Below, one piece after another: positions 1,081-19,770 of a stretch of 64,000 nt of DNA. Position 1 is the stretch's first letter. The number at the start of each line of letters is the position of its first letter. Position numbers and translations under genes: made by a program. The notes below the pieces were generated by a model. That model was not told the origin of the DNA. It did not search any database and saw only the letters and a program-made list of their open reading frames with translations. The stretch comes from Dyadobacter fermentans (GTDB lineage: Bacteria > Bacteroidota > Bacteroidia > Cytophagales > Spirosomataceae). The stretch covers positions 1-64,000 of the forward strand of contig NZ_JAHXBN010000013.1 of the NCBI RefSeq assembly GCF_019924045.1. Direction: 5' to 3'.

Positions 1081-3165
1081 ATGAAACTGATCATTCTTTT
1101 TTTTACGCTGATTATCCCGCTTCGGGCCTTTGCAGGGGAAAATGAACACATCAGACAGCTCGAAGAAAAGAAGCTGAAATGTGAGGGCATTCTGGCGACC
1201 TTTTCGGGAAAACCGGAGACCCTTGATCTGCTTATCAGGGAGGGCAGGGAAGGCCTGAAAATAGCCGGCGAAAAGGACTACGAATATAGCTATGCGTTTC
1301 ATCAGGCCATCGCAACAGGTTACTATTACAAGCAGGACTTCAAGTCTGCAAAGGAGCAGTTTGAACAGTCATATGCCGTTGCCATGAAAGGTGGTATGAC
1401 TGACAAAAGTTTAAAACCGCTGGGCAACCTGATTTCCGTCAATTATTATATGGGGTTGACCAAAGAAGCCGATCAGGCGGCTGAGCAACTTAAGAATGCG
1501 ATTGAGCCGATTTCAGATCCTAAGCTGAAAGCAGACGCCTACTACAATCTGGGCTTGTATAACCAGCAGCAAAAGTTCTATTATGGGATCGCCCTCGATT
1601 ATTTTCTAAAAAGTGTTGAGACTTATAAACCGATCGCAGACACCACAAAGATCGTCAAGTTAAAAGTCGATTACGGGCTCAGGCTTATGATGGTGGCAGA
1701 AATTTACCTGTATTTAAAACAACCCGAAAAAGCGCTTCAATATCTGAATCAAGCAAAGCCCACCTTGGGCTTATCGCTGATCAGCGACATTAATGCTTAC
1801 GGTAAATTTATTAAATGCTATGAGCTTCTGAAAAATAAAACCGAGGCACTTGCCTATTACAACCTGCTACACGAAGCAGCGGCCAAAACAAGCGGGAACT
1901 GGTCTCAATTGGTTTCCTCCAATCTCGCGATGGCCTCACTTGCTTTGGGAGACAAACAATACAGCCTCGCCAAAATGTATCTGGATAAAGCGGATGTGCA
2001 AGCCAAAAAGGACAATAAGGAGATTATGACATTCAGCGTCAATCTGGTCTACGGAGACTACTACAAGAGCTTAAAGGATTATAAAAATGCATTGAAGTAC
2101 TATAAAATGTCCGAGCACGGTTCGGCTCTTTACAACAAAGAGCAATACCTGGAATTGTTAAAATCACTGACAACCGTTGAAATGCTTGCGGGCAGCCCGT
2201 CAGACGCGGCTGCCTATCACGAGAAGTATGTTGCGCTTTCCGATTCTCTGACAGACAGTAAGGTTTCATTGAACCTGGCTGAAATGGAGGCACGTTTTCA
2301 AAACGAGGAAAAGCAATTGAGAATTGATAATCAAAATACCGAGCTTTCTTATGCGCGAAGCCAACGTTTGTGGTTGGGCGCTGGATTGCTACTTATTTCG
2401 CTGGTCGCTGTATTGCTGACCATCAACTACCGCAACAAAAAACGTACGGCCGACTTGCTGGATAAAAAGAATGAAGAGCTTACCAGGGTTAACAATGAGT
2501 TGGAAGTTGCCAATCAAACCAAGGCTAAACTTTTTGGTATTATCAGCCATGACCTGCGTTCTCCCATCAATCAGGTGTATCAATTTCTCCAGTTACAGCA
2601 ACGCAATCCGCAGCTGCTGAACGATGCGCAAAAAGATGAGCTCAGCAATAAGATACAAAGTGCAACAGGATCACTGCTGGCGACTATGGAAGAACTCCTG
2701 CTTTGGTCGAAGAGCCAGATGAGCCAGTTTAAAACCGATATTCAATCGGTTGATTTAAAAGATGCGACCGAACAAGCCGTGCAGCTGATTCAGCTTCATG
2801 TTGAAGCTAAACGGATCACGGTCAATAACGAAATTTCCGCGGCTGTATGGGTTAAAGCGGACCCGAATTATTTGCAGACAATTATCAGGAATCTGCTTCA
2901 AAATGCTGTTAAATCTTCTCCCGACGGGGGCGTAATTGATATCCGCTGTGTGCGGGTAGAAACCGGAATAGTTCTGGCCATCGGCAACACCGGGAGCGAA
3001 TTCACTTCCGGCCAATACGCAGAGATCCTTGCGAGCGGCCATCACGGCCTGTCCGGTTTGGGGTTGAAGCTGGTCGACGAGCTTTCGCGAAAAACAGGCA
3101 TCGCGGTTAGTTTCGAGAATCCTGAACGGGATTCAACGAGAGTCAGTTTGACATTCGCAACATAA
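1081..3165 (+). CDS. TPR-repeat sensor histidine kinase
   Basis: Membrane sensor kinase of 694 residues. Residues 1-19 are a signal peptide. About 60-400 is an all-helical, TPR-like periplasmic sensor (for example KSAKEQFEQSY, KALQYLNQAK, KNALKYYKMSE). A coiled coil leads into a single membrane segment at about 431-452. A second coiled coil precedes the HisKA dimerisation domain, with phospho-acceptor H490 in ISHDLRSP. The HATPase domain has an N box (NLLQNAVKSSPDGG), a G1-like NTG where Asn replaces the common Asp, and a G2 box GLSGLGLKLV. It should phosphorylate the LytTR regulator encoded just upstream. TPR kinases of this build are common in Bacteroidota; the signal sensed is unknown. Confidence 0.92.
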   Translation: MKLIILFFTLIIPLRAFAGENEHIRQLEEKKLKCEGILATFSGKPETLDLLIREGREGLKIAGEKDYEYSYAFHQAIATGYYYKQDFKSAKEQFEQSYAVAMKGGMTDKSLKPLGNLISVNYYMGLTKEADQAAEQLKNAIEPISDPKLKADAYYNLGLYNQQQKFYYGIALDYFLKSVETYKPIADTTKIVKLKVDYGLRLMMVAEIYLYLKQPEKALQYLNQAKPTLGLSLISDINAYGKFIKCYELLKNKTEALAYYNLLHEAAAKTSGNWSQLVSSNLAMASLALGDKQYSLAKMYLDKADVQAKKDNKEIMTFSVNLVYGDYYKSLKDYKNALKYYKMSEHGSALYNKEQYLELLKSLTTVEMLAGSPSDAAAYHEKYVALSDSLTDSKVSLNLAEMEARFQNEEKQLRIDNQNTELSYARSQRLWLGAGLLLISLVAVLLTINYRNKKRTADLLDKKNEELTRVNNELEVANQTKAKLFGIISHDLRSPINQVYQFLQLQQRNPQLLNDAQKDELSNKIQSATGSLLATMEELLLWSKSQMSQFKTDIQSVDLKDATEQAVQLIQLHVEAKRITVNNEISAAVWVKADPNYLQTIIRNLLQNAVKSSPDGGVIDIRCVRVETGIVLAIGNTGSEFTSGQYAEILASGHHGLSGLGLKLVDELSRKTGIAVSFENPERDSTRVSLTFAT

Positions 3166-3218
3166 TTTCCTGGTACGTTCATCGATTTCGCACGTTCATT
3201 CATCGATTATTCTGACAG

Positions 3219-3297: not shown

Positions 3298-3762
3298 ATG
3301 AAAACACTAAACAGTATTCGTTCGATAGCTGCATTATGCCTTTTGCTGGTATTGTCTTCCGCCTGTTCAAAAAAGGAAGCTGATATCGACCCGGGAGAAT
3401 CTGAAAAGACCGGAACGTTTAAAATTGACGGGGTGAGCTACAAAGGGACGACGAGTATCGTTACGATTGGCGGTACATATTCCGTTTCCTGCCAGCAAGA
3501 TACTCCGTTTAAGCTGATCCAGGTACATTTTGGAAGCAAGGAGGAAGCCGAGAAAGGAGGTACATTCAATGTAAGGGATTTTAGCATTAGTGGAATAAAA
3601 GGGGAAGTCGAAGTGGGTGTCGACGGCCTCACTTTCGATCCGGATGGAAGCTATACGGTTACGGTCAAGAACAGGAAAATCGTTATGAATAACGTGAAGC
3701 TGATCGAGACTGGCCAGGGCACTCAAAAACCGGTGATTAACGAGTGTTCCATTGAATTTTGA
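3298..3762 (+). CDS. Small predicted lipoprotein, function unknown
   Basis: This 154-residue protein starts with a lipoprotein signal peptide ending in LSSAC (C23), followed by a charged KKEADIDPGE stretch as in surface-exposed Bacteroidota lipoproteins. The mature part is rich in beta strands (GTFKIDGVSYKG, GGTYSVSCQQD, GSYTVTVKNRKIVMNNVKL) and suggests a single small beta-sandwich or barrel. No family is recognised. It follows the two-component genes by 132 bp with its own likely promoter, so it may be independent or a target of that system. A hairpin terminator follows. Confidence 0.8.
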   Translation: MKTLNSIRSIAALCLLLVLSSACSKKEADIDPGESEKTGTFKIDGVSYKGTTSIVTIGGTYSVSCQQDTPFKLIQVHFGSKEEAEKGGTFNVRDFSISGIKGEVEVGVDGLTFDPDGSYTVTVKNRKIVMNNVKLIETGQGTQKPVINECSIEF

Positions 3763-3785: not shown

Positions 3786-3822
3786 AATGGGTTGTATCTT
3801 GTTCGGATACAGCCCATTTTTA
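3786..3822 (+). terminator. Rho-independent terminator between convergent genes
   Basis: A 13-bp stem (3786-3798 with 3806-3818, one G-T wobble) and a 7-base loop are followed by a T run. AATGGGTTGTATC pairs with GATACAGCCCATT. The A/T-rich flanks mean it may serve both the plus-strand lipoprotein gene and the minus-strand operon that ends at 3844. Confidence 0.75.
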
Positions 3823-3843: not shown

Positions 3844-4275
3844 TCACTCCGGCACCAGTTCGTATTCATTCATGCTGTTCCCGGTTTTACGGCTTTCGTT
3901 GGTACGTTTGAGCATGAGCTGCTCAGGGCTGGGAGGCGTTGTTAAATAAAATTCTATGTTCCCGGAAGAGCCGCTGGGCGGTGGTGAGAGGTTTTCGAGG
4001 ATAAGCCGGTTATTGTCCGTTGAAAGTGACCAGATTCCGACAAGCTTGCGGCCGTCGACATCCATAAAAGTGACCTGCTCGCCGGCCGTGAGGTCGAGCC
4101 GAAACCGGGCGTAGCCCGGCTGGGTACTTCCTGAATTCCCCTCCGCGTAAACCACCACGCCATTTTGCCTGACGGATTTGGCTTTCCATACAATATTGAT
4201 AGCTGCCGGCTCAACCTTTTTGGGCTGACAAGCGGCAAGCATGATCACAAAGAGAATGTAAATGCATATTCGCAT
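3844..4275 (-). CDS. Small predicted lipoprotein, last gene of the TANFOR/FnIII operon
   Basis: This 143-residue protein has a short lipoprotein signal peptide ending in LAAC (C16). The mature domain begins IVWKAKSVRQNGVVVYAEGN and contains GIWSLSTDNNRLILENL and FYLTTPPSPEQLMLKR. That pattern of strands and short turns resembles the small lipocalin-like lipoproteins often seen in Bacteroidota, but no family is assigned. It starts 13 bp after the stop of the 866-residue FnIII protein, so it is very likely the fifth and last gene of the minus-strand operon and may be a membrane-anchored accessory of that system. Confidence 0.78.
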   Translation of the reverse strand: MRICIYILFVIMLAACQPKKVEPAAINIVWKAKSVRQNGVVVYAEGNSGSTQPGYARFRLDLTAGEQVTFMDVDGRKLVGIWSLSTDNNRLILENLSPPPSGSSGNIEFYLTTPPSPEQLMLKRTNESRKTGNSMNEYELVPE

Positions 4276-4288
4276 AATCTGCTGGGGT

Positions 4289-6889
4289 TTAATGGATAAG
4301 TACTTTTCGTTTGATTACCTTTTGGTTATTGTCGATCACGACGACATAGATCCCGGGTTCCATCGTTTTCAGGTCAATTTCCATCGTCTGCGATAGCTTC
4401 ATATTCCTGACAACCACACCCCGCATGTCGTATAGCAGCAAGCTGCCCACGCCTGGCTGGCTGAGCCGCACATATAATGTATTACCATATGCGTATGCCA
4501 GATCCTGGTCGGCAACAGGTTCCGTGCCGGTTATAATCGCACTCGCCGACAGTTTTACTACGTCGCTATATGGAGATGCACCCGCGTCGTTAACAGCCTT
4601 GATCCGGTAATAATGGTCGATGACATCCAATATTTTGCGGTCGTCAAACCAGAGCGAGGGGTATGGTGTACGACCTATTTCGACAAAGTTTTTATCGGGG
4701 ATTTCGGATCGTTCGATTACCACTGTCCTGGTATTAGGCGAAACCGCGTCCCAGCTCAGTCGGACCAGGTCAAAATCAACCGCAGTTACTTTCAGGTTTG
4801 CAGGCTTTGCCGGTAACGGAGCTTTGGGGGTAGTTACCACGGCGATATTGGAATAACCTGAATATCCGACAGCATTCAGGGCTCTGACCCGGAAGTAATA
4901 GGTTGTCTCGTCTTTTAAACCTTTATCCGAAAACGCGGTAACATTTCTACCCACGCTGTCGACGTCAACAAAGTTGCTTCCGTCCGTAGATCGTTCGATT
5001 ACAAAACTTCTTTCATTGCCCGAATTATCGGACCAAACCAGCTTTACCGAAAAATAGTCTGTTGCCGATGCCGCAAGGTTGGAAGGGTTATTCGGAGCCA
5101 CGTCCCTGGTCGTCGCGGTAGCTACATTGGTGGGGTCAGATGCTCCCTGTGAGTTTCTCGACCGTACACGGTACCAATATTTTGTCGCTGGGCTCAACCC
5201 TGTGTTCTGAAAGGCGGTGGAATTCGCTGCCGCTTCTCCAACTTTCGAAAAACTGAGGCCATCTGTCGACCTTTCTATATCGAAGACAGATTCATTAGAT
5301 GAATTGTCCTTCCAGGCCAGGTTAATCTGGCTGCTCGAAGCGGTTGTTGCTGTAAGATTAGAAGGGGTAATGGGCGGAACGTCAAAAGTAGTGGCTTCGG
5401 CAATGTTGGAATAATCTGAGTTCCCAATAGCGTTTTTGGCACGAACCCTGTACCAGTATCGCGTTAGTGTCGACAAACCGGTATTTTGATAGCTTGTGAT
5501 ATTGGCCGCTAAATCGGCGATTTTAGAGAAATTAGTGCCATCTGTCGATCGTTCTACTTCAACACCGGTCTCATTTCCCGAATGGTCTGTCCAGTTCAGG
5601 TCAATTTCTTTGTTGGACACCGGCGTGGCTGAGAGGCTTTGAGGAGTATTGGGGACAACATCCCTGGTCGTTGCGGTGGCCACATTAGAATAGCCCGAGT
5701 TCCCACCGTTGTTTTTAGCTCTTACCCGATACCAATATTGGGTGTTAGGAGTCAGCCCGTTATTGGAGTAAGAAGTGGCATTAGTCTCTACATCGGCTAT
5801 TTTTAAAAAGTTAGTTCCATCTTGCGAGCGTTCAATTTCAAAACCGCTTTCGTTTCCGGAATTATCCGTCCAATTCAGGTTGAGCTGACTTTCACTCATT
5901 GTCGTTGCCGACAGATTACCAGGTGCTGCGGGCGGGTTGGCATTCGTCGTGGCATCGGCCACGTTGGTGTAGCCCGATGCCCCCACTTCGTTGAATGCTC
6001 TTACACGATAAAAATAACGCGTCGATGCAGACAGACCGGTGTTGTTGTATTGCGTTACATTGGCAGCTAACGAAGCTATTTGACTAAAATTGACCCCATC
6101 CGTTCCGCGTTCGACAACAAAACCGGTTTCATTGCCGGAACCGTCGATCCAATTCAACCGGATCTGAAAAGTGGGATCGAGTGATTGGGCAATCAGGCCT
6201 GACGGTGCTGCGGGCGCAGCCTGCCGGGTGGTTGCGCAAGCCGTATTGGAATAACCGGAATTGCCCGTTGCGCCCCAGATGCCTCTGATCCGATAACAAT
6301 ATTGGGTCGCCGGTGAAAGGCCGCTATTGTCGGTATATGTACCATATTCTCCCTCAGCGGTGCCAATTTGTGTAAACGGCCCTCCGGATCCCGTCGATCG
6401 CTCAATGGCAACCTTTATGCCACTGTCTTTCCCCCCATAGCTGGCCCAGTTTAGCCGGACACTATTCGCCCCGGTTTCTGTTGCTGCAAGCCCCGAAGGT
6501 ACCGGAAAGGCGTTGGTAGTAGCGCAGGCTTCCTGCGAGTACCCGCTGTACACACCGGCGGAATTTCTGGCCCGGGCCCTGAAACAATAAGGCGTGGAGG
6601 CATTAAGGCCAGCGGCGATAAAGGTCGGGTTCGGTTGAGAAGGTTGTGAGGTAAAAGATCCAATGACGCTGTACGCCCCTCCGTTCTCCGATTTTTCGAT
6701 CAATACGGTGATGTTCGTATTGGCGTTGAGGTCATTCATCGAAAGTATTATGTCACCATATGACTTTGATTCAACCACCAAGGATCTTATTGCAACCGGA
6801 GTTTGCGCAAAGCCTCTTGCGACAAATAATAGCACGGTAAGGGCAATAACCGGGATTACCCGCAGGGAATCATTTATTAGCTTCTTCAT
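4289..6889 (-). CDS. Fibronectin type III repeat protein with T9SS sorting domain
   Basis: An 866-residue exported protein. Residues 1-28 are a signal peptide ending in GFAQ. About eight FnIII domains of roughly 92 residues follow. Five of them (about residues 224-690) are close copies carrying the same landmarks: LNWTDNSGNE, then a VERSTDG-type strand, then YWYRVRAKN, then SGYSN. The last ~75 residues (YAYGNTLYVRLSQPGVGSLL, a YDMRGVVV strand, PGIYVVVIDNNQKVIKRKVL) are a type A T9SS C-terminal sorting domain, so the protein should cross the outer membrane and be surface-attached or released. It is the fourth gene of a five-gene operon with another FnIII protein, a giant TANFOR-like protein and an OM barrel. 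An adhesive or spacer role is inferred from the repeats. Confidence 0.9.
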   Translation of the reverse strand: MKKLINDSLRVIPVIALTVLLFVARGFAQTPVAIRSLVVESKSYGDIILSMNDLNANTNITVLIEKSENGGAYSVIGSFTSQPSQPNPTFIAAGLNASTPYCFRARARNSAGVYSGYSQEACATTNAFPVPSGLAATETGANSVRLNWASYGGKDSGIKVAIERSTGSGGPFTQIGTAEGEYGTYTDNSGLSPATQYCYRIRGIWGATGNSGYSNTACATTRQAAPAAPSGLIAQSLDPTFQIRLNWIDGSGNETGFVVERGTDGVNFSQIASLAANVTQYNNTGLSASTRYFYRVRAFNEVGASGYTNVADATTNANPPAAPGNLSATTMSESQLNLNWTDNSGNESGFEIERSQDGTNFLKIADVETNATSYSNNGLTPNTQYWYRVRAKNNGGNSGYSNVATATTRDVVPNTPQSLSATPVSNKEIDLNWTDHSGNETGVEVERSTDGTNFSKIADLAANITSYQNTGLSTLTRYWYRVRAKNAIGNSDYSNIAEATTFDVPPITPSNLTATTASSSQINLAWKDNSSNESVFDIERSTDGLSFSKVGEAAANSTAFQNTGLSPATKYWYRVRSRNSQGASDPTNVATATTRDVAPNNPSNLAASATDYFSVKLVWSDNSGNERSFVIERSTDGSNFVDVDSVGRNVTAFSDKGLKDETTYYFRVRALNAVGYSGYSNIAVVTTPKAPLPAKPANLKVTAVDFDLVRLSWDAVSPNTRTVVIERSEIPDKNFVEIGRTPYPSLWFDDRKILDVIDHYYRIKAVNDAGASPYSDVVKLSASAIITGTEPVADQDLAYAYGNTLYVRLSQPGVGSLLLYDMRGVVVRNMKLSQTMEIDLKTMEPGIYVVVIDNNQKVIKRKVLIH
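4819..6220 (-). repeat. Tandem ~280-bp repeats encoding five near-identical FnIII domains
   Basis: Five consecutive units of about 93 codons encode FnIII domains 3 to 7 of the 866-residue protein. Each repeats, in order, a proline-rich start (such as APSGL, APGNL, TPQSL, TPSNL, NPSNL), a LNW-D-SGNE strand, an ERSTDG-N-F strand, a WYRVRAKN strand and a YSN-A-ATT end. Similarity is visible in the DNA too. Such repeats can expand or contract by recombination. Confidence 0.85.
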
Positions 6890-6916
6890 TTTACAGGAAT
6901 TTTACGGTCGGATTTG

Positions 6917-8920
6917 TTAGGGCCATTGTACACCCACCGGATCAGTGGCTTCGCTTTGGCGGCTGTCGGTATCCACGGTAACAAGGCTGTAATAATAGCC
7001 GATGCCGGGCGTGGCATATTTATCAAAAAATTCAGCTTGCTCGCCTGTTACACTGCCGATGACCTTGGCGGCAACCGTTTTTTCGGTATATCGGTATACC
7101 ACTATTTTTTCGGGCGCATCCAGAGGCGCATCCCAGGCTATCCGCACCCCCTTGTTGGTCGCCATGACGTTCAACCCGCGCACCGGTAATACGGCAGGGA
7201 GTTCTTTAAAATAGGATGCCTCAGCACTGTATCCGCTTGTTTTACCATTGATGCTGACCGCTCTGACACGGTAACTGTACATTTCACCGTTTTTTACACT
7301 AACATCCTCGTATCCGTTCCTCGACTTATCATCGACCGCCTGCCGGTAAACTTCTTTGAAGTCTTTTTCATTGCCTGCCTTACGTTCTATTATATACGCA
7401 ACGATATAGGGGTCAATACTTTTCATGTCTTCCCACACCAGCAATGCGTGACCTTCGTGATATAGTATTTCCAGATTGATAGGCGTTGCCACATGGTCGG
7501 GGTAGCGGGGTTCCGAGTACACGGGGTCGCTCATCGGGCCTATATTGTAACTGGTGTTAATGGCTGCAACGGCCCATTTATATCCCGTGCCAATGGGCAG
7601 TTTGCTAAGCGCAACCTTGTAATTCAAATCAGCATTTGATGCCGGTATCACCTCAGAATATTGCGTAAGGGAATCGGATTCGTTATTTGCGTAGTACAAA
7701 TAATAGCCGTGCGTATCATAGTCCGCCGGTTGCCAGCGAAAATAAAGGGTGTCGTTGATTTCACTGACGCTCAAATTGGAGGGTTTTATCAAAGCCGGAC
7801 GGCTGGCCTTCAACATGCCTGCGACGCGGACAGATTCTTCGGATCGGTCGTACACGCCGTTCAATTTGATTTGATAATAATATCCGCGCACAGGCTGTAC
7901 TGCCTGATCATAATAAAGGGTGTCCGACGCAGAAGCTGTTCCAATTAACTGATAGCCCGAATCAAAATAATCGCTCCTCCATATCTCGACGGCCCGGAGG
8001 TTTCGGGTGGAAGCGAGTTTCCACGAAATGCCTATGGCGTCATAATTTTCTTCCGATTTTGTGTGGATATCCAGTATGGCCGGAATGTCTTCCTGTGGGC
8101 GTAAATTCGTGATCGTTATCGTGTCGGAAGGGGCGCTTTCGTTACCCAGAAAGTCTTTTAAATATACCACATAGCTGTAAAGCATTTTCCGCCGGGCGTT
8201 ATAGTCTGATATTTCCAAAAACAGGGAATCCTTTTGCCCTTTTCTGAAAGCCCATTCCGCCGGGCAATCGGCGAAAGCCGTTTGGCCATATGAAGCGCGC
8301 ATTACCCGTACGCCGGCAATGTCCGGCCTTACCTTTTTGAGGTAGTATTTGATTTTGACCATTGTGCCGGTACTTGTGTAACTCAACGCTTGGACAGTGG
8401 CGGCGATCTTCGAACCAGGCACGCTCACAGTAGCAGGGTTGTGATAAACCGCTGCCCCGGTCGTTTTCAGTTGGCGAATCCGATAGTCATAGCGCTTTCT
8501 CTGCTGTACATCCGTATCCAGGTAACCCAGCCCGAGCGCTTCCAGGTATTGCGGATTGAATGCGTAAGTTCCCAATGAATCCACAGACGACAAGGTTCGA
8601 TAGCGCGCATATAGCAATGCTGTTAACGAATCATTCGGAATATCGTACAGGGGGTTTTTGCTGGTTAAATTTGTCAGGCGGGCTGCAAGATCGGCGGCAG
8701 TCTGAGGCGGCTTGCTGGTCGTGCAAACGGGTTTCCAGTCAGGTGCCTCAGCATTGCTCCCCACCAGGAGCCTTTCAATGACATATTGCGGTCCATGCAA
8801 CAGCTTTTCAAATTGAATAAAGACGCCATAAGGACCGGCCGTTGCCTGTGCTTGCTGGGCTTTTGTTTCAATTGCCAATAGCGCGAACAACAACGAGGCG
8901 TATTTAGCTAATCGTTTCAT
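6917..8920 (-). CDS. Exported fibronectin type III-like repeat protein
   Basis: This 667-residue protein starts at the ATG whose codon is 8918-8920, which gives a clean signal peptide (MKRLAKYASLLFALLAIETK, cleaved near AQQ). An in-frame ATG at 8953 would add 11 residues without hydrophobic character and overlap the upstream gene. The mature part holds about five divergent FnIII-like modules (for example ISWKLASTRNLRAVEIWRSD, LYFRWQPADYDTHGYYLYYA, ALLVWEDMKSIDPYIVAYII, VRIAWDAPLDAPEKIVVYRY). It ends abruptly after the last module and shows no T9SS sorting domain, unlike the next gene. It starts 11 bp after the giant TANFOR-like gene, so the two are co-transcribed. A binding role within an envelope complex is inferred only. 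Confidence 0.87.
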   Translation of the reverse strand: MKRLAKYASLLFALLAIETKAQQAQATAGPYGVFIQFEKLLHGPQYVIERLLVGSNAEAPDWKPVCTTSKPPQTAADLAARLTNLTSKNPLYDIPNDSLTALLYARYRTLSSVDSLGTYAFNPQYLEALGLGYLDTDVQQRKRYDYRIRQLKTTGAAVYHNPATVSVPGSKIAATVQALSYTSTGTMVKIKYYLKKVRPDIAGVRVMRASYGQTAFADCPAEWAFRKGQKDSLFLEISDYNARRKMLYSYVVYLKDFLGNESAPSDTITITNLRPQEDIPAILDIHTKSEENYDAIGISWKLASTRNLRAVEIWRSDYFDSGYQLIGTASASDTLYYDQAVQPVRGYYYQIKLNGVYDRSEESVRVAGMLKASRPALIKPSNLSVSEINDTLYFRWQPADYDTHGYYLYYANNESDSLTQYSEVIPASNADLNYKVALSKLPIGTGYKWAVAAINTSYNIGPMSDPVYSEPRYPDHVATPINLEILYHEGHALLVWEDMKSIDPYIVAYIIERKAGNEKDFKEVYRQAVDDKSRNGYEDVSVKNGEMYSYRVRAVSINGKTSGYSAEASYFKELPAVLPVRGLNVMATNKGVRIAWDAPLDAPEKIVVYRYTEKTVAAKVIGSVTGEQAEFFDKYATPGIGYYYSLVTVDTDSRQSEATDPVGVQWP

Positions 8921-8931
8921 TGTCTGGTAGA

Positions 8932-11900
8932 TTATGGTGTATTGGAAGTGCAAGTATTACCCCCGGCCGTCCATTTGGGTGTTATATCGAAATTGATATT
9001 GGGCGCGCTTCCTTTCCCAACCGTGGCACTCCCCGTCACGATCAACTGCATATCTGCTTGCAACGGGGGGAGCTCAAATCCTGAAAACGCTTCCGTCAGG
9101 GTAGCTTTAAAGCCCGCCCCGATATTTGACGACAAGGACATGCTGGCACCGGGAGGGCTGGTGTACGCCGTTAGGCGCGTATCGATCCCGCCATTTACGT
9201 AGACTTCACCGCCGGCCCGGATGGATAGGAGCGTTCCATACGCGTACGCCCTTGCCCCAACACCCATCCCCGCGCCAAATGACAGGGCACCGCTTTCGTA
9301 GTTGCCATAGACGTAGCCATCGGCATAAATATCCACCCCTACCTGGGCCTCGGCGCCAGGCACCCCGTAAACATGATTGAAATTGCCGATTCCTGCGGGA
9401 AGATTCATTTCGCCGGTAGCGTATATGCCCTTAAAAGTCGAATTGAATGAGCAGGGGAGGCTTTTCCGATGACTATTGGCAAACAAAACGCTGGTAGCAT
9501 CGCTGAGGTCCGGGCTGTTATAATAGCCTAGCATCAAACCCGCTTTCAGTGTGGTCGGTATGGGCAATGGCACATTTTCCAGGGTTCCGGAAGCAACAAT
9601 ATAGAATCCATTTTTATCAACTCTTACCTGGCCGACTCCGCCTGAGAAAGTCATCGATGGGGGGATGTCCAAGGGAGGCATTTGTAGTGAACCGGTAAGG
9701 CGGCTATTTTTGAAATCATATACAAGGTTCAGCGCTCCCAAACCGCCCGGTGCCGGAATTCCATCCAGTCCTATGTTCTGATTATCAGCAATAATTTCAC
9801 CATGGGCCGTAAATGAAAGGCGGTTTTTCTCTTCTTTTTTCCACATCTCAAAGCCCATCGGCAAACCGGAAAATGTCATCAGTTTCCATTGCTTGCCCTC
9901 CACCCGTTGATGACAATATAGCTCCGATAGCCCGGATTTGCCTTCCAAGGTGATACTCAGTTGATTCTTCGCATAGTCCGTTTTATTACCTGCATCGTCG
10001 TTGGCTGCATATACCGGATTGTCTTTAAGTTTCAGGAGATCCTTTTCCAGATTCAGGTCCAGGTTTCGATTGTGGGTAATGTGGGTGGAATTGGCTGTGT
10101 GGATCAGCAGCACATTGTCTATATGCAGTTTTTCGGGCTCTTCAACAAACCCTTTCATCGCAATGATGCCGTCCGCAAAATAGATCCCGTTGCTCGACCC
10201 GCCGTCGGCGTCTTTCACATTGAGTGCCTCAAAATTGAGATATCCGCTTGTCTCGAACTTATATTGGCCCGGAATCATCGTTTTGAGCTTAATCGCATTA
10301 GTCCCCTTGGGCTTTGAATAGATAAAACGCATCGAAACATCCTTGGGCGCATTCGGGATACCGGTAGATAGTCCCGAATCGAATGCAAACCAGTCGGGGC
10401 CTGTTTCGATGGTGGTGGGGCGTACGTCGATGATATTGAAATACCGGAACGACTTGTTGCCGGCGCCGAAGGTCACAATGTCCTGTCCATTGTCCAGCAG
10501 GGACACAGTTTGAAACTCCAGCGCATCGGTTAGCCCTGGCAGTGAGCGAGCGGGTAACTTTGCTGCCGGGGAATCGCCTTCCGGCACGATGACCATCGAC
10601 CAATGTCCCTTCTTGTCGGAGCCTGTTTGAGCGTCATAACCGAAGTAGGCCTTTCCGCCCAGATTTAATTTGGCCACGCCCGCCAGTTCCAGCTCTTTCG
10701 GCTCGACATTCAATTTTAAAAAGTCGCTTCTCAGGTTGAACTCCTTAATGGGGATATCCACTTTCCCAGTTTTGACAACGCCCGTGGTCGAATAAAATCC
10801 ACCCTTTTTGAAGTCGAGCTCCCATTTCCGGATTTCTACACTCCAATTTCCCGCCAAAGGAAATGTGAGCGGCGTTTCGCCGGATTTTTTATCGATCGTG
10901 TTGTTTTTGATAACCAGATCCCCGATTCTCACTTTAAACTCCGAAGGAATGGCTTCTTTAATGTGGCATTCAATCTCCGGAGAAAGGTGTATTTCGTCTT
11001 GAACTAACCTCGACCCGTTCAACGCACTGGTGGCATTGAAAGCCAGGAATTTAAGCTTTACAGGTGAACCGTCCTTCTGGGAAATGGTAAAATTGGCCCA
11101 TTTGATATGGCTCTTTTCGGAGTTGAAGGCGACCACAGCCGGTTTGCCTGCGCTCAGTGTCGTATCAGATAGGAATAACTGATTTTTACCCGGATTGAAG
11201 AGATTTTCCGAGAAATTGAACGAGTTATCGATCACCTGCACCTGCGCAAGGATTTTCCCTTTCAATGTCCCCGGTGTTCTGGAGATTTTCAATTTGCCGG
11301 CATTGGCAACCGCATCCAGGGAGGTCACCCTGACGTTGTATTTAATATCCTTCACGACGATATTTGGCGTGGCGTGGTAAACGAGCTGATCCAAAACACC
11401 ATCTTCCAGTTCCACCGTTTCGCTCGCCGGGATACCTTCCTGCGGCTTGTCCGGATTCGGTTTGAAGGCTACGTTCTCAAATCTTGCCGTCAGTTTGTCT
11501 TTCAGTGTACCGAAAGGCCCGAATTCGGGATCGGCCAGGTTAACCACACCGGTTGCCTTCATGGTCTTGGGATCTATTTTTTCAATCGTAACCGGAAAGC
11601 CCCATATGGATGCAATGCTGAATTTGTCGAATGTGGTGATCGTCAGTTTCAGTGACTGCCCTTTTGCCTGAGGGATTACCTGGGTTGAACTTACACCGAT
11701 ATACGTAGGGCCTGTTTGTCCCTGATTGTAGCTTGCTTCGATGGTACAAATCGATAGATTTTTATCCACGTCGAGCGAAAAGGAACCGTCTTTTTTGGAT
11801 AGGGTACTGTATTTGACGGAAGCATTTTTGCCGGCGGATACGAACACTAATGCACCTTCCAAAGGAATCTCAGCACCTTGCGCCGATTTGGTAACCACCA

Positions 11901-14900
11901 CGCCATTGACCACCGTCGCCGGTTCCAGCAACACGATTTTGGGCTTCGGGATTTTACTTTCCTCATTTGTTACCGACAAGGTCTGCGTGACATAACCCGG
12001 TGCCGAAATAACGACATAGAGGTTGTCTGTGGATACATTTTTGAATCGAGTTTCGACTACACCTTTCTCATCGCTGGGGCCGAAAACGAAGCCCGGATCA
12101 TTTTTTCCAAAGAGTTTAACGCGGGCTCCCGCCACACTTTTCCCCGTCGGACCTTTTTCGAAGATTTTGAAGGTAATCCGGTGATCGCGTTGGTAGATAT
12201 CGATATCGCCCGCATTGATATTGAATCTTCCTTCCGAAAGGGCTGTCGGTTTCGGTAATTCTGTTTTAATATCCCTCACCTCGTTGAAATAACTGATGTT
12301 GACCGGGATTACTTTCAAGGTTTTGGCGGTAGATGGCGCATCCATATCGAATTTCCACATCCCGTCATGGAACTGTGTTTTGAAAATAGACCCGTCGTCG
12401 GCCTGTACATATGCTTCTATGCTTTGTCCGGGGCCCGGCTCGGGGTTGACCAGCTTCCCTTCCATATTGAGGTTTGCAGCGATGCCGGCCGGTATTTTCG
12501 GTGGCGTATTACCGATGCTTTCGCTTACCGGTTTGCCTGGCGCTGCTGGCTTAGTTTTATCCGAAACTTTGTCGATTTTAGCGCCGCCAGCTCTGGTATC
12601 ATAATCAATCGCCCTGCCCGTAATACGGGTGTTAGGCTGCATCAATACCGCAGGGTTGTTGCTATTTTGGCCCAGCATAAGGTCTCCGATGCATATACAA
12701 TCGGTGCATCCCGGGCAGGGTGACGGAGTTTCCTTGCCGGAAGAGCCGTTAGCATAAAAGTTATATCCCTTTGCGAATATTTTCACCCTGGCATTCTTGC
12801 CCGGTTTGAGTACAAAGGGAGTGACCCTTCCATTTTCGTCGGTCATTTTGTTGATATTACCTAGCGAACCGTCCGCGGGTTCATAGGTCAGCGCTACCAG
12901 GGCACCTTTGATACCCTGTGTCGGATTCGATTGATCAACGACGCGGATGTGGACAGTCGGCAGGCCGGGTTTCAGGTAACGCTGCACGACATCTGACTTG
13001 ATCCATTGATATTGGTCGGCGAAGACAATGTCGGCTTTACCGCCAGCGCCAGCATTAATCCCTCCAGAGGTTGGAGCAACCAAGCTTTCGTCCAATAATA
13101 TTTTCTTGTTGATAGGCGAATCTTGTATTTCATCCCTTATCCAATATTTGTTGGCTTGCTGGCACGACTGTATTGCAATGGGCCACCAATCTTTATTCTT
13201 GAAATATGCTGCGATCTTGATTGCGTCTTCCGGCACATCCAGAAAAAGATCTTCGGTGTAGTCTGTTCCTCCTCCGGCAGGCGTGAACCTGAATTTATAT
13301 CCTTTGCGGCAGTTAACATTTGCTCCGCCTACGATTGTCCTCTTTTTTCCCTCGGGACCAATTTTGTCCGAGGTTTTTATCTGATCGGCACTGAGTTTGT
13401 TCACGTCGGTTTCGTAAACACCCAGCCATGACTCGTTGGTAGTGATCCTTTTCAGCGAGACCAGTTTGTAATTGTTGAGCCCATCGTCCGCCTTTTCCGT
13501 GGCAATGAAGTATAGGTCGTTCTCTACCTTGGCCTTGACCATTCTCGGGAAGGTAATCGTACCGTTTACGTCCGATTTACCCGAAGCAATCTCTCTATAT
13601 GAATTGCCATCTATTTTTCTGATCGACTGAACTCCGCTGCCCTCGTCTTCGGGCGGCCCCGTATGGACTCCCGGAATACCTACCTTCTTGTTAACAGCCC
13701 GTAATACCGAAATCTTTATCCCGAACAAATTCTGTTTGTACCCAGCCTTTTGAATGGCCGTCGTGTCCGACTTCACCTGAACCAACAAACCATAGCTCTT
13801 CACCTTGGCAATCATTGTATTAAAATCGAAAGCCCCCTGGGGATCCATAACCTGGTCGGCGGATATCCCAAAATCCGTTGACGGGCTGGCGTAATACGCG
13901 TTGTCGACGATGACGCGCAGGGTACGTCTGTAAATTCTGCCTCCTCTTTTAAACTCTCCCGTTCCGGTTAGGGGAGTTCTGGGCAATATTCCCAGAGGCA
14001 TCGGTTTGATCATTTTAACTTTGAACTCAAAGGAGCCGTCGGAGCCGGTTACTTTGGTGTCCAGCGTCTGGCTGTAATTTTTATGAAAAGCGGCGATCTC
14101 GTCATCTCCGTTTCCGGGTGTGCCGGCAGTCACGGTACCGTCCGCTAAATCCTGGTACACAACTTGCAAATGAATTCGCGTGTTAGCAAGCGCCTTTGCT
14201 TCCGCACCGTCTTTGCCTGCATCAGCAAACTGATAGGCTAGTTTGCCTTTGAAGGACATTGTCGGTGGCTCGGTGGTTTCTATATTGAAAGTGGTTTTTT
14301 CGACCCGTGCAGTTTGCGGGACCAGCTTGTTTTTCGGGCGTGAGAAAATCACAGCCTGCCCGTCGTCCGGCTTCTGCCCGCAGCCGGGGCAATACACTTT
14401 ATAGTTGTCGTAGGGTTTGTCGGCATATACCAATTTTTCAAAAGTGGCCGAATGGGCATCTCCGCTGGCTTTCAAAGTAGCAGTTCCGATAAACTGATAG
14501 CCAGCCCGTTCGACTTCGGCTTGTAGGGAAGAATTTGTCTGGCTTTTAAGCTGCCCTTCGACGGGAAGCCGGTATTTCTTGTAATACTCCTGCAACCCGG
14601 TGGTTTTACGATAAATGACCACAACCTGACCGTCCAGTTGCGCGTCGGAAGCTCCCGGCCAATTTTTATAGGTTTGTTTGGCGGTCAAATCCAGCGTGTA
14701 ACCCGAAGCCAGCCAGGTAATGCCCTCCACCTGATATACTTTTTCTTCACGGCGTGAAATCTGGAACGTGTTTTCATTCGTGGCCTGATACGATCCGGAA
14801 GTAGTAAAAGGCTGAATAAACGGGTTCACCGGATCTATTACGCAACGTGTGAACATTTGGGTCGTGTCGGAGCTGTGCAGTGCCGACTTCAATACCTTGA

Positions 14901-16404
14901 TTGCATATCTGCCCATCTCGTCGGATGTGCCGTATCCAACTGTCAACAGGTAGTTGCTTGGTTCCATTTTAGACAAAACCACCTTTGTATTAGGCAAAGC
15001 ATGAGCCTTCCCTGCTTCGCCCGGGTATTTGAAAGCCAGAACACCCGTGATGGTGAGCGTATCTTCAGAGCTACCCAGGTCCCTGGCGAATAATGAAAAC
15101 ACGACCGGTTTTGACAACAAAGGCTCATCAGGCAACTGCGCCTGCTTACGAATTAAGTCAGACACGCCCATTAGCTCGACAGACACTTCCAGTTTCTTAT
15201 CGGTGGTGATTCCGGCAGGCAGGTCCTCTTTCGCTATTTGAAAGTAAGGTGTCCTGACCTGGCGGACAAGCAGGGGGGGATCGGATGCCTTAGCCCCTAC
15301 ATTTGCAATCCTGATCTTATAGTTCAGTTCGCCCCGATGATCTAAAATTGATTTCAATTGAGGTGGCACATGATAGGCTTTTCTTAACAGGGCTTCCAGT
15401 TCCTTATCGAGCTCCCATTTAAATGTCAGAGGGTTGTTGCTGCCCACCTGCATACTTTTCGTCCTTAATGGACTGGCTTGATCCGGCGCGGTCATCGTGA
15501 TGTATTCAAGCCCGGGGAGTACTTTCGTAATGCCATACGTGAATACCCCTACCGGGCTTTTTCCCTCATTCATAAAGGCGAGCTTTTGGCTCGTGGGAAT
15601 GGCCTGTACCCGCCAGGCATAACGTTTGCCGAATTGTAAAGCGGGATGCGAGGGGCCGTACAGAAAAGTGGTCGTACGTAAATGCTGTACTTCCAGTCCG
15701 GTCCGCGGCAACGCGATTGCATCGATATACACATTGGGATTCACCTCTGCCGGAAGTTCTGCAATGCGCAGGGTGTACTCCACCTGACTGGGCAGTATGC
15801 CTACTGGTGCCGACCAACTAAAAAGCTGCGTTTGTGGCGTTCTGATACCGATCGCTTCATTGTCGTATGGGGAGATCAGGATCGGAGGTTCCACGATCCG
15901 GACGGGAATTAACCCGCTGCACCCCGTAGGAAACTCCGCCGACAATGGCCTGGTGGTGGCATTGTCGAAGGCCTGTACGCAAAGCTGGTAGTTACCTTCC
16001 GGCAGAGGTAGCCCTCTATACAATTCGTTTTTATTCATTCCTTGTACCTCAATCTGGGCCAGATCAAACAGGCCTTCCAGCTCCGAGCGGGTAAGCATTC
16101 GGTTCACGTCCGTGGCCCGTAGTTCGAGTGGGCGAAGCGGACGATAATTGGGCGATGTACGAATGATAACCCCGTTGTCACCTTCGAGCCTGCCAAGCAG
16201 CCTAACGGACAAATCTTTACCCGACAGGTTAGATATAAAGACCTGTGCACGGCTACCGGTTCCGGGATAATCCTGAATGTAGGGACTGTACGGAGGAAGT
16301 ACGTTGGTCAGGATCCTGACCTGGCTTTGTGCCCGCGACGCGTTGACCAACAATCCGAAAAGTGCCGGAAAGAGGAAACAGAATATAATGTGCGCTGTTT
16401 TCAT
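8932..16404 (-). CDS. Giant exported protein with TANFOR-like N-terminus and carboxypeptidase-regulatory-like domains
   Basis: A 2490-residue exported protein with a signal peptide (about 1-26). Residues 30-170 (TNVLPPYSPYIQDYPG, then LEGDNGVIIRT, then LPEGNYQLCVQAFD) resemble the N-terminal region of Bacteroidota TANFOR-domain proteins as I remember that family. A FnIII-like module (IRTPQTQLFSWSAP) follows. The middle has several carboxypeptidase-regulatory-like beta sandwiches (GVLAFKYPGEAGKAHALPNT, GIKGALVALTYEPADGSLGN, KSVAGARVKLFG, EIPLEGALVFVSAGKNASVK). The last third is long and strand-rich and ends in a glycine/alanine/tyrosine-rich stretch (about 2330-2440) without a recognisable T9SS domain. 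Two CPGC motifs occur (C672-C675 and C1230-C1233, the latter followed by TDCIC). It sits 9 bp after an OM-barrel gene. Function unknown; a surface or envelope scaffold is likely. Confidence 0.88.
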   Translation of the reverse strand: MKTAHIIFCFLFPALFGLLVNASRAQSQVRILTNVLPPYSPYIQDYPGTGSRAQVFISNLSGKDLSVRLLGRLEGDNGVIIRTSPNYRPLRPLELRATDVNRMLTRSELEGLFDLAQIEVQGMNKNELYRGLPLPEGNYQLCVQAFDNATTRPLSAEFPTGCSGLIPVRIVEPPILISPYDNEAIGIRTPQTQLFSWSAPVGILPSQVEYTLRIAELPAEVNPNVYIDAIALPRTGLEVQHLRTTTFLYGPSHPALQFGKRYAWRVQAIPTSQKLAFMNEGKSPVGVFTYGITKVLPGLEYITMTAPDQASPLRTKSMQVGSNNPLTFKWELDKELEALLRKAYHVPPQLKSILDHRGELNYKIRIANVGAKASDPPLLVRQVRTPYFQIAKEDLPAGITTDKKLEVSVELMGVSDLIRKQAQLPDEPLLSKPVVFSLFARDLGSSEDTLTITGVLAFKYPGEAGKAHALPNTKVVLSKMEPSNYLLTVGYGTSDEMGRYAIKVLKSALHSSDTTQMFTRCVIDPVNPFIQPFTTSGSYQATNENTFQISRREEKVYQVEGITWLASGYTLDLTAKQTYKNWPGASDAQLDGQVVVIYRKTTGLQEYYKKYRLPVEGQLKSQTNSSLQAEVERAGYQFIGTATLKASGDAHSATFEKLVYADKPYDNYKVYCPGCGQKPDDGQAVIFSRPKNKLVPQTARVEKTTFNIETTEPPTMSFKGKLAYQFADAGKDGAEAKALANTRIHLQVVYQDLADGTVTAGTPGNGDDEIAAFHKNYSQTLDTKVTGSDGSFEFKVKMIKPMPLGILPRTPLTGTGEFKRGGRIYRRTLRVIVDNAYYASPSTDFGISADQVMDPQGAFDFNTMIAKVKSYGLLVQVKSDTTAIQKAGYKQNLFGIKISVLRAVNKKVGIPGVHTGPPEDEGSGVQSIRKIDGNSYREIASGKSDVNGTITFPRMVKAKVENDLYFIATEKADDGLNNYKLVSLKRITTNESWLGVYETDVNKLSADQIKTSDKIGPEGKKRTIVGGANVNCRKGYKFRFTPAGGGTDYTEDLFLDVPEDAIKIAAYFKNKDWWPIAIQSCQQANKYWIRDEIQDSPINKKILLDESLVAPTSGGINAGAGGKADIVFADQYQWIKSDVVQRYLKPGLPTVHIRVVDQSNPTQGIKGALVALTYEPADGSLGNINKMTDENGRVTPFVLKPGKNARVKIFAKGYNFYANGSSGKETPSPCPGCTDCICIGDLMLGQNSNNPAVLMQPNTRITGRAIDYDTRAGGAKIDKVSDKTKPAAPGKPVSESIGNTPPKIPAGIAANLNMEGKLVNPEPGPGQSIEAYVQADDGSIFKTQFHDGMWKFDMDAPSTAKTLKVIPVNISYFNEVRDIKTELPKPTALSEGRFNINAGDIDIYQRDHRITFKIFEKGPTGKSVAGARVKLFGKNDPGFVFGPSDEKGVVETRFKNVSTDNLYVVISAPGYVTQTLSVTNEESKIPKPKIVLLEPATVVNGVVVTKSAQGAEIPLEGALVFVSAGKNASVKYSTLSKKDGSFSLDVDKNLSICTIEASYNQGQTGPTYIGVSSTQVIPQAKGQSLKLTITTFDKFSIASIWGFPVTIEKIDPKTMKATGVVNLADPEFGPFGTLKDKLTARFENVAFKPNPDKPQEGIPASETVELEDGVLDQLVYHATPNIVVKDIKYNVRVTSLDAVANAGKLKISRTPGTLKGKILAQVQVIDNSFNFSENLFNPGKNQLFLSDTTLSAGKPAVVAFNSEKSHIKWANFTISQKDGSPVKLKFLAFNATSALNGSRLVQDEIHLSPEIECHIKEAIPSEFKVRIGDLVIKNNTIDKKSGETPLTFPLAGNWSVEIRKWELDFKKGGFYSTTGVVKTGKVDIPIKEFNLRSDFLKLNVEPKELELAGVAKLNLGGKAYFGYDAQTGSDKKGHWSMVIVPEGDSPAAKLPARSLPGLTDALEFQTVSLLDNGQDIVTFGAGNKSFRYFNIIDVRPTTIETGPDWFAFDSGLSTGIPNAPKDVSMRFIYSKPKGTNAIKLKTMIPGQYKFETSGYLNFEALNVKDADGGSSNGIYFADGIIAMKGFVEEPEKLHIDNVLLIHTANSTHITHNRNLDLNLEKDLLKLKDNPVYAANDDAGNKTDYAKNQLSITLEGKSGLSELYCHQRVEGKQWKLMTFSGLPMGFEMWKKEEKNRLSFTAHGEIIADNQNIGLDGIPAPGGLGALNLVYDFKNSRLTGSLQMPPLDIPPSMTFSGGVGQVRVDKNGFYIVASGTLENVPLPIPTTLKAGLMLGYYNSPDLSDATSVLFANSHRKSLPCSFNSTFKGIYATGEMNLPAGIGNFNHVYGVPGAEAQVGVDIYADGYVYGNYESGALSFGAGMGVGARAYAYGTLLSIRAGGEVYVNGGIDTRLTAYTSPPGASMSLSSNIGAGFKATLTEAFSGFELPPLQADMQLIVTGSATVGKGSAPNINFDITPKWTAGGNTCTSNTP

Positions 16405-16413
16405 GTTATCGAA

Positions 16414-18111
16414 TTAAAAAGTAATCCCATAGCCAAAGCTTCCCCGGAACTCGTCGAACTTTTCGGATGCCTGGCCCGTGTTGGAATTCAGATAGTTAAG
16501 CGATAAGGTAATGCTCTGTTTTTTGCCTATTTGATAGCCTGCATTCGCCGAAGCCGTCATCACCTTACCTGTTATGCCAAACTGTTGGTTGACCAGGTAA
16601 GAGAAATTAGCCGAAGTGCTCAGTTTCTTCTTGAAAAAGGAATAGTTGGTGCCCAGCGTCGGACCATAGAATTTCACATTGTCCGTCATGGAAGAGTCTC
16701 TGGCCGGAAGGCCCGACTGGGTGTAGGAAAGCATCAGATTTGCTCCGAACCCGGATCGATTGTGCGTCAGGAAATAGCCGATGTTTACATTTTCATTATT
16801 GTTTTCCGTGCTCGAAGCCGTGTTTTCGTTTAAATCGGAAAGTTGCTGATAAGTGCCCGTTGCGTTGAACACGTGGGCCATTTCCTGGTTCAGGATTGAA
16901 TAGCGGAGATTTACCGTCGCCGACAAGTTGTTTTGTGCAATACGCAAGGTATCTATCAGCGGCCTGGTACCCGCCTTTTGATTCAAACCGTAGTTGGACA
17001 GCGAAATGTCAACGCCGAATTCGGGCTGAGGGTTGAGCGAAACCATCAGCGAGCCAATCGTACGGCCGGTGCGGACGTTTTTGTTGTTGGCCAGATTATC
17101 ATATTGAATTCCATAGCTTCCCGCAATTCGTGCTTTTCCTTTCAGTAGGTTGAGTGTGGGAGCCACAGTGTAGCTCTGAATATCACTCTGGAAATAGTAC
17201 GCACCCATTGTCTGAAAATTAGGGTCGATGCGCTTGTACTGTAACTTGACAGAACCCCATTTGCTTTGATAGCCCAGCGCAGCCTGTGTAGCCTGCGTAA
17301 GCTGCGTCGAAAGGCGCGGGGTGATCATTCCGCCCAAAAACTTAGCCAGAAAATTACTCCCCTCGGCGGCGACCTCGGACGAGCGTATGTCGCGTGTGTA
17401 AGAGCTCGCCGCCGCGTCAATCTCCATAGTAATATGTTTTACAAGCAGCAAACGCGCGCTAAGGCCCACTACCAGATTCTCTGCCGGTACAATGCTTTGT
17501 TCTGGTGTTGCAGCTACTCCCGAAATGGAGTTTGTATCGTCCTTGGCGCGCAATACCAGCAAATCGATATAATTATTGGTTTTACCGTAACCTACTTTAA
17601 AAGCATAACCAGTCCTTTTAAACGATGGGATAATATTAGGATCGGCAATGTTTGATGATATCGCTTTATTAAACCTGCCATAAACAGCTCCGATCCTGAG
17701 CAAACCCGGATTGAGCTCGACACCGCCGCCCAAAAAAGTATGGCCGGCCAGCGTGAATGGAGAGAACGTCACGTTTCGGTAGCCGGCGTGCACAGTCGCC
17801 CATTTGTAGGAAGGGCTAAGTCCGAACTGGTTGAACGGCTGGCGGAAACTGGTGCCCTGATTGCCCAAAACACCCGAAAATGGCAATGTAATTCCTCCCG
17901 GAAGAGACACGGTGATAGCACCGCTCAACCCGAAAGGATTCGGTTGGTTGCGCCCTGCGATACCAGCTGACCGGTATAGGCCGGCGTAGGCATTCAGACC
18001 GCCCGACAGTTGTACTACCCTGGACTGGCCGCCGGTGCTTTGGGCAACTGCTACCAGGCAACAAAAGCATTGCATCAACGCGATTCCGAAACATGTAATA
18101 CTCGCTTTCAT
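16414..18111 (-). CDS. Predicted outer-membrane beta-barrel protein, first gene of TANFOR/FnIII operon
   Basis: A 565-residue protein with a signal peptide (about 1-23, ending VAVAQ). Residues 40-110 look like a plug or periplasmic face (SGAITVSLPGGITLPFSGVL, QPFNQFGLSPSYKWATVHAG). The rest alternates polar and aromatic residues in 10-14-residue strands typical of a barrel (KVGYGKTNNYIDLLVLRAKD, ATVNLRYSILNQEM, FGANLMLSYTQSGL, QSITLSLNYLN) and ends in FRGSFGYGITF with a terminal phenylalanine, the usual OM-barrel signal. No TonB box is seen. It heads the five-gene minus-strand operon; an export or anchoring channel for the giant protein encoded 9 bp downstream is a reasonable inference. Confidence 0.82.
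   Translation of the reverse strand: MKASITCFGIALMQCFCCLVAVAQSTGGQSRVVQLSGGLNAYAGLYRSAGIAGRNQPNPFGLSGAITVSLPGGITLPFSGVLGNQGTSFRQPFNQFGLSPSYKWATVHAGYRNVTFSPFTLAGHTFLGGGVELNPGLLRIGAVYGRFNKAISSNIADPNIIPSFKRTGYAFKVGYGKTNNYIDLLVLRAKDDTNSISGVAATPEQSIVPAENLVVGLSARLLLVKHITMEIDAAASSYTRDIRSSEVAAEGSNFLAKFLGGMITPRLSTQLTQATQAALGYQSKWGSVKLQYKRIDPNFQTMGAYYFQSDIQSYTVAPTLNLLKGKARIAGSYGIQYDNLANNKNVRTGRTIGSLMVSLNPQPEFGVDISLSNYGLNQKAGTRPLIDTLRIAQNNLSATVNLRYSILNQEMAHVFNATGTYQQLSDLNENTASSTENNNENVNIGYFLTHNRSGFGANLMLSYTQSGLPARDSSMTDNVKFYGPTLGTNYSFFKKKLSTSANFSYLVNQQFGITGKVMTASANAGYQIGKKQSITLSLNYLNSNTGQASEKFDEFRGSFGYGITF

Positions 18112-19770
<1,659 letters not shown>

Follow-up and report, generated by a model that had tools for sequence, protein, structure and literature searches.

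A TANFOR-headed giant protein with an exchangeable body and its predicted outer-membrane barrel partner in Dyadobacter

Organization of the locus

The window, which is the whole 64,000-nucleotide stretch of DNA analysed here, comes from a host genome of 8.0 Mb in 173 contigs. The barrel protein encoded at the locus is 93% identical to its counterpart in Dyadobacter jiangsuensis and 71-77% identical to those at eight other Dyadobacter loci, and on these values the locus is assigned to Dyadobacter (Spirosomataceae, Cytophagales). We define the "header" of the giant protein as its conserved N-terminal part and the "body" as everything behind it; the two FnIII proteins encoded downstream are called fnA and fnB (Table 1).

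Table 1. Genes and other features of the barrel/giant locus (positions in the window)
Feature	Position	Strand	Description
Response regulator, LytTR DNA-binding domain	309..1037	+	242 aa; Pfam LytTR 3.2e-17, Response_reg 1.1e-13
Sensor histidine kinase with TPR region	1081..3165	+	694 aa; Pfam HATPase_c 2e-10, TPR_12 9.6e-10, HisKA 4.9e-5
Operator-like tandem repeat	3177..3209	+	two copies of approximately GTTCATCGATT, 21-bp period, 88 bp before the 154-aa gene
Lipoprotein-like gene	3298..3762	+	154 aa; possibly same regulon; no Pfam match
Hairpin	3786..3818		14 pairs, between two convergent units, terminator-like by pattern scan only
Lipoprotein gene	3844..4275	-	143 aa; constant part
fnB	4289..6889	-	866 aa; FnIII repeats and T9SS type A sorting domain; constant part; Pfam fn3 3.4e-53
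fnA	6917..8920	-	667-aa FnIII protein, exchanged with the body; Pfam fn3 5.5e-9
Giant gene	8932..16404	-	2490 aa, TANFOR-headed
Giant body	8935..15525	-	exchangeable, type I; residues 1360-2490 mainly beta (predicted); CarboxypepD_reg 1419-1483
Giant header	15526..16404	-	constant; signal peptide, TANFOR match 29-155, conservation up to about residue 293
Barrel gene	16414..18111	-	565-aa outer-membrane barrel, ~25-26 strands (predicted), header partner
Operator-like tandem repeat	18199..18231	-	87 bp before the barrel start codon

Five minus-strand genes separated by 9, 11, 27 and 13 bp make up the operon, an arrangement that a sequence-only reading of the window had described and that the coordinates of the open reading frames confirm. 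That reading had also placed FnIII repeats in both middle proteins and a T9SS sorting domain in one of them; Pfam fn3 matches the two, and the type A sorting domain of fnB scores 38.0 bits against TIGR04183 (cut-off 23). The length given for fnA is counted from an internal ATG (position 8920); the listed open reading frame starts with TTG at 8953. The signal peptides and the lipobox of the 143-amino-acid protein are calls made by eye only. Apart from FnIII-type matches of fnB, scans with phage and PADLOC families returned only weak matches.

Gene order, on whose conservation the sequence-only reading depended, is kept: all five genes occur in unchanged order in D. jiangsuensis. When named genomes were searched with nothing but the window barrel, 26 loci were found, and in all 26 the header gene lies directly downstream of the barrel gene; these loci form one family and are not independent. 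Taken together, the order kept in D. jiangsuensis and this adjacency indicate that the five-gene locus is not a product of chance. Profile searches found a single copy each of header and barrel in the host genome.

The TANFOR header and the barrel

The N-terminus of the giant, which had been described as TANFOR-like, has a significant match to the TANFOR profile TIGR02542 (E 4.9e-6), though its 26.5 bits fall short of the curated cut-off of 67. The same is seen among the relatives: none of 27 selected genomes passes the TIGR02542 cut-off and 11 match below it, while 20 of the 34 aligned headers match at E<=0.001. When the whole giant was used to search the 194 genomes of the order sample, 38 matched at E 1e-10, nearly all of them within the first ~300 residues; one genome matched in the body too.

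Headers are found on proteins of very different size. Three genomes of the phylum sample (G206, G227 and G320) have TANFOR headers in open frames of ~6,400 amino acids, and many other TANFOR frames of that sample are near 4,000 amino acids. Members of one family have similar lengths, a hint that giants of a conserved class exist outside the order. Six loci (L043, L052, L053, L058, L060 and L070) encode short header proteins of 729-786 amino acids. Directly after most of them comes a second, large gene whose product starts with what looks like a signal peptide, and the carrier of the header and its passenger may be encoded separately there. Stop codons interrupt header or barrel genes at L039 (genome G040) and L052 (G192), indicating that the unit also decays.

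The call of an outer-membrane barrel made in the sequence-only reading agrees with the AlphaFold2 model, which is all-beta with ~25-26 strands (mean pLDDT 79.6, pTM 0.67). Profile-based sequence searches of the PDB gave best expect values of 0.97 for the barrel and 0.0037 for the header.

Pairing of barrel and header

Profiles for both partners were built from the fetched loci (25 sequences in the barrel alignment, 34 in the header alignment), and the following counts should be read with the knowledge that the barrel profile was drawn from header loci and is biased towards co-occurrence. In the order sample of 194 genomes the barrel was found in 41 and the header in 47, with both in 41; the corresponding numbers for the phylum sample (395 genomes) are 102, 93 and 88. 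A header is thus present in 41/41 and 88/102 of the barrel genomes, in line with the co-occurrence of barrel and giant on which the earlier interpretation had relied. The 14 phylum-sample genomes with a barrel and no header have weak barrel matches inside longer open reading frames, and no header was seen at the N-terminus of the nine such frames that were compared. A link of all distant barrels to headers was considered and rejected, because in one branch of the barrel superfamily, with ~800-amino-acid proteins (L078, L079, L082, L088, L089 and L090), the TANFOR header is absent and the N-terminal region is unrelated to it. Header genomes without a barrel number 6 of 47 in the order sample and 5 of 93 in the phylum sample, several of them being weak or partial header matches.

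The distribution of the pair varies within genera. In a table of 24 genera compiled by hand, 17 genera vary, with 37 genomes having both partners, 40 neither, five the barrel only and two the header only. This variation within genera means that the match between barrel and header is not explained by common ancestry alone.

The two genes are also close to each other on the chromosome. Of the 67 barrel matches in the order sample (the count after split matches were merged by hand), 33 immediately precede a header gene in the same orientation and 17 are within 30 kb of one; the other 17 are on contigs that have no header, and there was no case of a header on the same contig beyond 30 kb. In seven open reading frames of 863-947 amino acids, header and barrel follow each other in a single frame, and the group profile hits the barrel and the header alignment alike at 99.9%. 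The segment before the first strand of an outer-membrane barrel is usually on the periplasmic side. Since the header precedes the first barrel strand in the fusions, it would be periplasmic there, a position that suits docking or plugging.

From these comparisons of genomes, the barrel is the constant partner of TANFOR headers, and the unit is real and conserved. The earlier proposal that barrel and giant form a complex is therefore well supported as far as a functional pair is concerned, by gene order, co-occurrence and natural fusions, while a surface, secretion or adhesion complex is a plausible form for that pair to take.

Exchange of the giant body and its neighbour

To compare bodies, 67 giants were collected and, with one short broken copy left out, 66 were clustered on the part behind residue 340. 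They fall into clusters of 18 (type II), 14 (type I, which includes the window), 10, 9 (type IV), 7 and 4 (type VI), and four singletons. Types II, IV and VI are distantly related to one another; no convincing relation was found between any of these three and type I. At the window and the 26 named loci the bodies are of type I (11), Ib (2), II (10) and VI (4), and they change type at least nine times on a quick barrel tree and eight times on the header tree. When all body labels were placed on the barrel tree, 11 changes were counted, against a mean of 15.8 in shuffles. Body labels are therefore more clustered than in the shuffles, and exchange is frequent, not free.

The boundaries of the exchange can be seen in two Runella genomes. 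R. limosa and R. defluvii share 88-95% DNA identity over the upstream genes, the barrel and the header as far as about window residue 293; past that point no blastn match (E 1e-5) was found until the first bases of fnB. The exchanged block therefore includes the body and its FnIII neighbour fnA, and fnB and the lipoprotein stay. Identities of the 143-amino-acid lipoprotein in relatives, with the same as well as with other bodies, range from 43% to 84%. Judged from such alignments, body and fnA are swapped as one block between constant parts, with barrel and header in front and fnB and the lipoprotein behind. In some type II loci the exchanged block also includes an extra gene of 334-396 amino acids between the giant and the FnIII gene (L115:17659-18720, L099:17500-18504 and L032:7689-8879), for which no Pfam match was found.

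Within type I, ten relatives share 48-91% identity with residues 1360-2490 of the window giant and three others 23-24%. In 8 of the 13 rows, conservation is lowest over the final 90 residues. A structure model of residues 1360-2490 is mainly beta (mean pLDDT 66.8, pTM 0.39). With this low-confidence model the top Foldseek matches were teneurins and LptD (TM <=0.13), and the one good partial match was to the transthyretin-like carboxypeptidase domain 5aq0_A (TM 0.77 by target).

A regulator pair and two tandem repeats

The sequence-only reading had not noticed the exchange of body and fnA, nor had it picked up the LytTR/kinase pair or the two repeats that resemble operators. A LytTR site is typically a tandem direct repeat, with a spacing of about two helical turns, placed before a gene. 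A LytTR regulator gene and tandem repeats of that spacing are both present at the locus. Ten Dyadobacter loci, the window among them, have a close barrel; in eight of these an orthologue of the regulator is found beside the operon, and in the remaining two it is on a different contig.

The repeat ahead of the barrel, approximately GTTCATCGATTA with a period of exactly 21 bp, occurs at all ten of these loci, and two of the nine outside the window carry type II bodies. Scores for the ten range from 2 to 5 mismatches of 24, against a best of 7 in 540 shuffles; because the consensus was taken from the same sequences this score is partly circular, which is less true of the constant period and the genome search. 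Seventeen loci of other genera have at least 8 mismatches, and no other repeat sites with <=5 mismatches were found in the 26 named loci or in 40 order-sample loci. At <=3 mismatches the host genome holds exactly two repeat sites, both at the locus, and a control search with the reversed pattern found none. Both sites, together with the whole arrangement including the regulator pair, are present in D. jiangsuensis. The 154-amino-acid lipoprotein-like protein, whose gene follows one of the repeats, has 86% identity in D. jiangsuensis and 45% in D. soli. The LytTR regulator may bind the repeats, which we regard as putative operators.

A near-perfect 17-bp palindrome, AAACGTGAGTCACGTTT, lies at 18235-18251 of the window, close to the barrel operon's tandem repeat on its upstream side. 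It was rejected as a conserved operator, as it had no exact match (centre base free) in 117 loci. A second lineage of the unit is present within the genus: at L035 (genome G139) a distant barrel (37% identity) is accompanied by a giant whose body is a singleton and by a gene with weak likeness to fnA, and in the 19.5 kb covered we found no repeat, regulator pair, fnB or lipoprotein.

Function and export of the giant

We think it probable that the locus encodes a regulated envelope unit for the barrel-dependent display or secretion of exchangeable giant proteins. This reading builds on what sequence comparison shows, namely the operon, the co-occurrence, the fusions, the cassette exchange, the T9SS tag on fnB and the pair of repeats. 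The giant would cross into the periplasm by Sec, and its header would dock on the ~26-strand barrel, a partner in the outer membrane that is dedicated to it. The long body would then lie outside the cell as a surface or extracellular protein with fnA as its own FnIII partner, while fnB would reach the surface by T9SS and the lipoprotein would sit at the membrane. The adjacent LytTR regulator and kinase would control the operon, and probably also the 154-amino-acid gene, through the tandem repeats. The two loci with the regulator on another contig, and L035, speak against this reading, as do the barrel genomes without a header, the header genomes without a barrel and the barrel matches on contigs that have no header. 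More broadly, the header/barrel pair may be a platform shared with the TANFOR polymorphic toxins, onto which non-homologous bodies are exchanged. We tentatively extend this to the suggestion, for which the odds are somewhat less than even, that Bacteroidota have in this pair a route of secretion or display across the outer membrane that has not been described before. Such a route would do the work of two-partner secretion with a ~26-strand barrel and no POTRA domain; it would serve both TANFOR toxins and non-toxic giant surface proteins, and its passengers (body and cognate FnIII protein) would be exchanged as cassettes.

The giant could instead be T9SS cargo with an unrecognised signal, in which case the barrel would only collect or anchor it afterwards. 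SprA, the T9SS channel, is present in 102/102 barrel genomes and 93/93 header genomes, against 303 of the 395 genomes in the phylum sample, and T9SS may therefore carry the giant; 14 of the 20 SprA-negative genomes listed (of 92) are from one family, however, so this association weighs little either way. The operon does include a T9SS-tagged protein, fnB, and the authors who described the TANFOR toxins could only propose T9SS for their exit (PMC7073777). Barrels of the PorP/SprF type, with 14 strands, are established shuttles and anchors that collect and anchor type B T9SS cargo (PMC12618676, PMC9143113), and this precedent makes an anchor role for a larger barrel a serious rival. Neither a type A nor a type B sorting domain was found on the giant, however (no TIGR04183 or TIGR04131 match at E 0.1), and the barrel has no Pfam or NCBIfam match above cut-off, to PorP/SprF, PorV or any other family, and is predicted to have ~25-26 strands instead of the 14 of a FadL-type barrel. 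We consider this explanation less likely than not. Docking and surface exposure of the giant are putative, and its route out may lead through the barrel or use T9SS with the barrel as anchor.

TANFOR proteins have been published as a class of polymorphic toxins in Bacteroidota and as proposed T9SS cargo (Jana, Salomon and Bosis 2020, PMC7073777), which corrects the statement of the sequence-only reading that no function is assigned to TANFOR-like proteins, even though no toxin was found in the window giant. A conserved N-terminus in front of an exchanged C-terminal part is what a polymorphic toxin would have, and poor conservation of the last 90 residues would fit a toxin domain not yet described. 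Pfam was run on the last 500 residues of two groups of giants, which were set from gene maps ahead of the scan (one planned row was dropped because of a frame error). Among 14 C-termini from other header loci there were matches to PT-HINT (2), EndoU (1), a VgrG3-like C-terminal domain (1) and an intein-type domain (1), whereas none of 15 giants of the barrel/FnIII type had a match at E 0.001. The window giant, scanned separately, matched no toxin domain in the Pfam, NCBIfam, PADLOC and phage family scans. No immunity gene was found directly downstream of it, the next gene being that of an FnIII protein, and the 143-amino-acid lipoprotein is retained alongside exchanged bodies, on which ground a role in immunity was rejected for it. 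That the window giant is itself a toxin is thus improbable. Still less probable is a barrel that conducts some other substrate, in the manner of a porin, MtrB or an usher, with the giant as an accessory or fibre and not a passenger. It is the best Foldseek matches that point this way, MtrB (6r2q_B, TM 0.52 by query and 0.46 by target) and the FimD/PapC ushers, yet the top match has ~11% identity and an rmsd of 12.7, and none of the five operon proteins matches a Pfam family of cytochromes, chaperones or pilins.

Comparison with known systems

In two-partner secretion, as in CdiB-CdiA, the barrel gene directly precedes the giant gene, and the giant is conserved in its N-terminal region and can have its C-terminal part exchanged. 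The Dyadobacter unit is alike in all of these points. It differs in that neither barrel nor giant has a Pfam match to POTRA, Omp85-type or TPS domains, the marks of type Vb secretion, and in that the exchanged part is most of the giant and the next gene as well. MtrB of the Mtr complex (PDB 6r2q) is likewise a large outer-membrane barrel and the best fold match, but the structural match is weak, no sequence relation is recognisable and the operon has no cytochrome gene.

The PorP/SprF shuttles are similar to the unit described here in that an outer-membrane barrel is dedicated to a large surface protein whose gene is its neighbour (PMC9143113, PMC12618676). Their barrels are of the 14-strand FadL type, are commonly encoded directly downstream of the cargo gene and go with cargo that is marked by a C-terminal domain (PMC9143113, PMC12618676), whereas the Dyadobacter barrel, with its ~25-26 predicted strands, is encoded upstream and is paired with an N-terminal header on a giant that has no sorting domain. 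The closest likeness is to the TANFOR toxins (PMC7073777), which share the signal peptide followed by a TANFOR region, the very large size, the variable part behind a conserved header, and FnIII and T9SS-tagged neighbours; unlike them, the Dyadobacter locus has no toxin or immunity gene that we could find. The words barrel, porin, SprF and two-partner are absent from the main text of that paper, and in its abstract, introduction and most of its results there is no mention of a barrel as partner, of header and barrel fused, of a body exchanged along with its FnIII gene, or of a regulator. No description of a unit of barrel and TANFOR giant was found in the open-access literature, as judged by titles and the starts of abstracts. 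The barrel-header pairing, the fusions, the exchange of the body together with the FnIII gene, and the regulator are thus the new points.

Across the phylum the barrel goes with the header, and some genomes have the two fused; it is a testable candidate partner for the exit of TANFOR toxins. If whole bodies are indeed exchanged with their FnIII partners behind a constant header, free-living Bacteroidota would offer a striking example of surface variation by modules, and the locus points to a little-studied mechanism of export or display that these bacteria may use for giant proteins and toxins. With a LytTR/kinase pair next door and two repeat sites, the control of the unit can be tested as well.

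Elsewhere in the window (24659-26971), a 770-amino-acid protein matches Glyco_hydro_42 and carries a T9SS sorting domain, which makes it another T9SS cargo.
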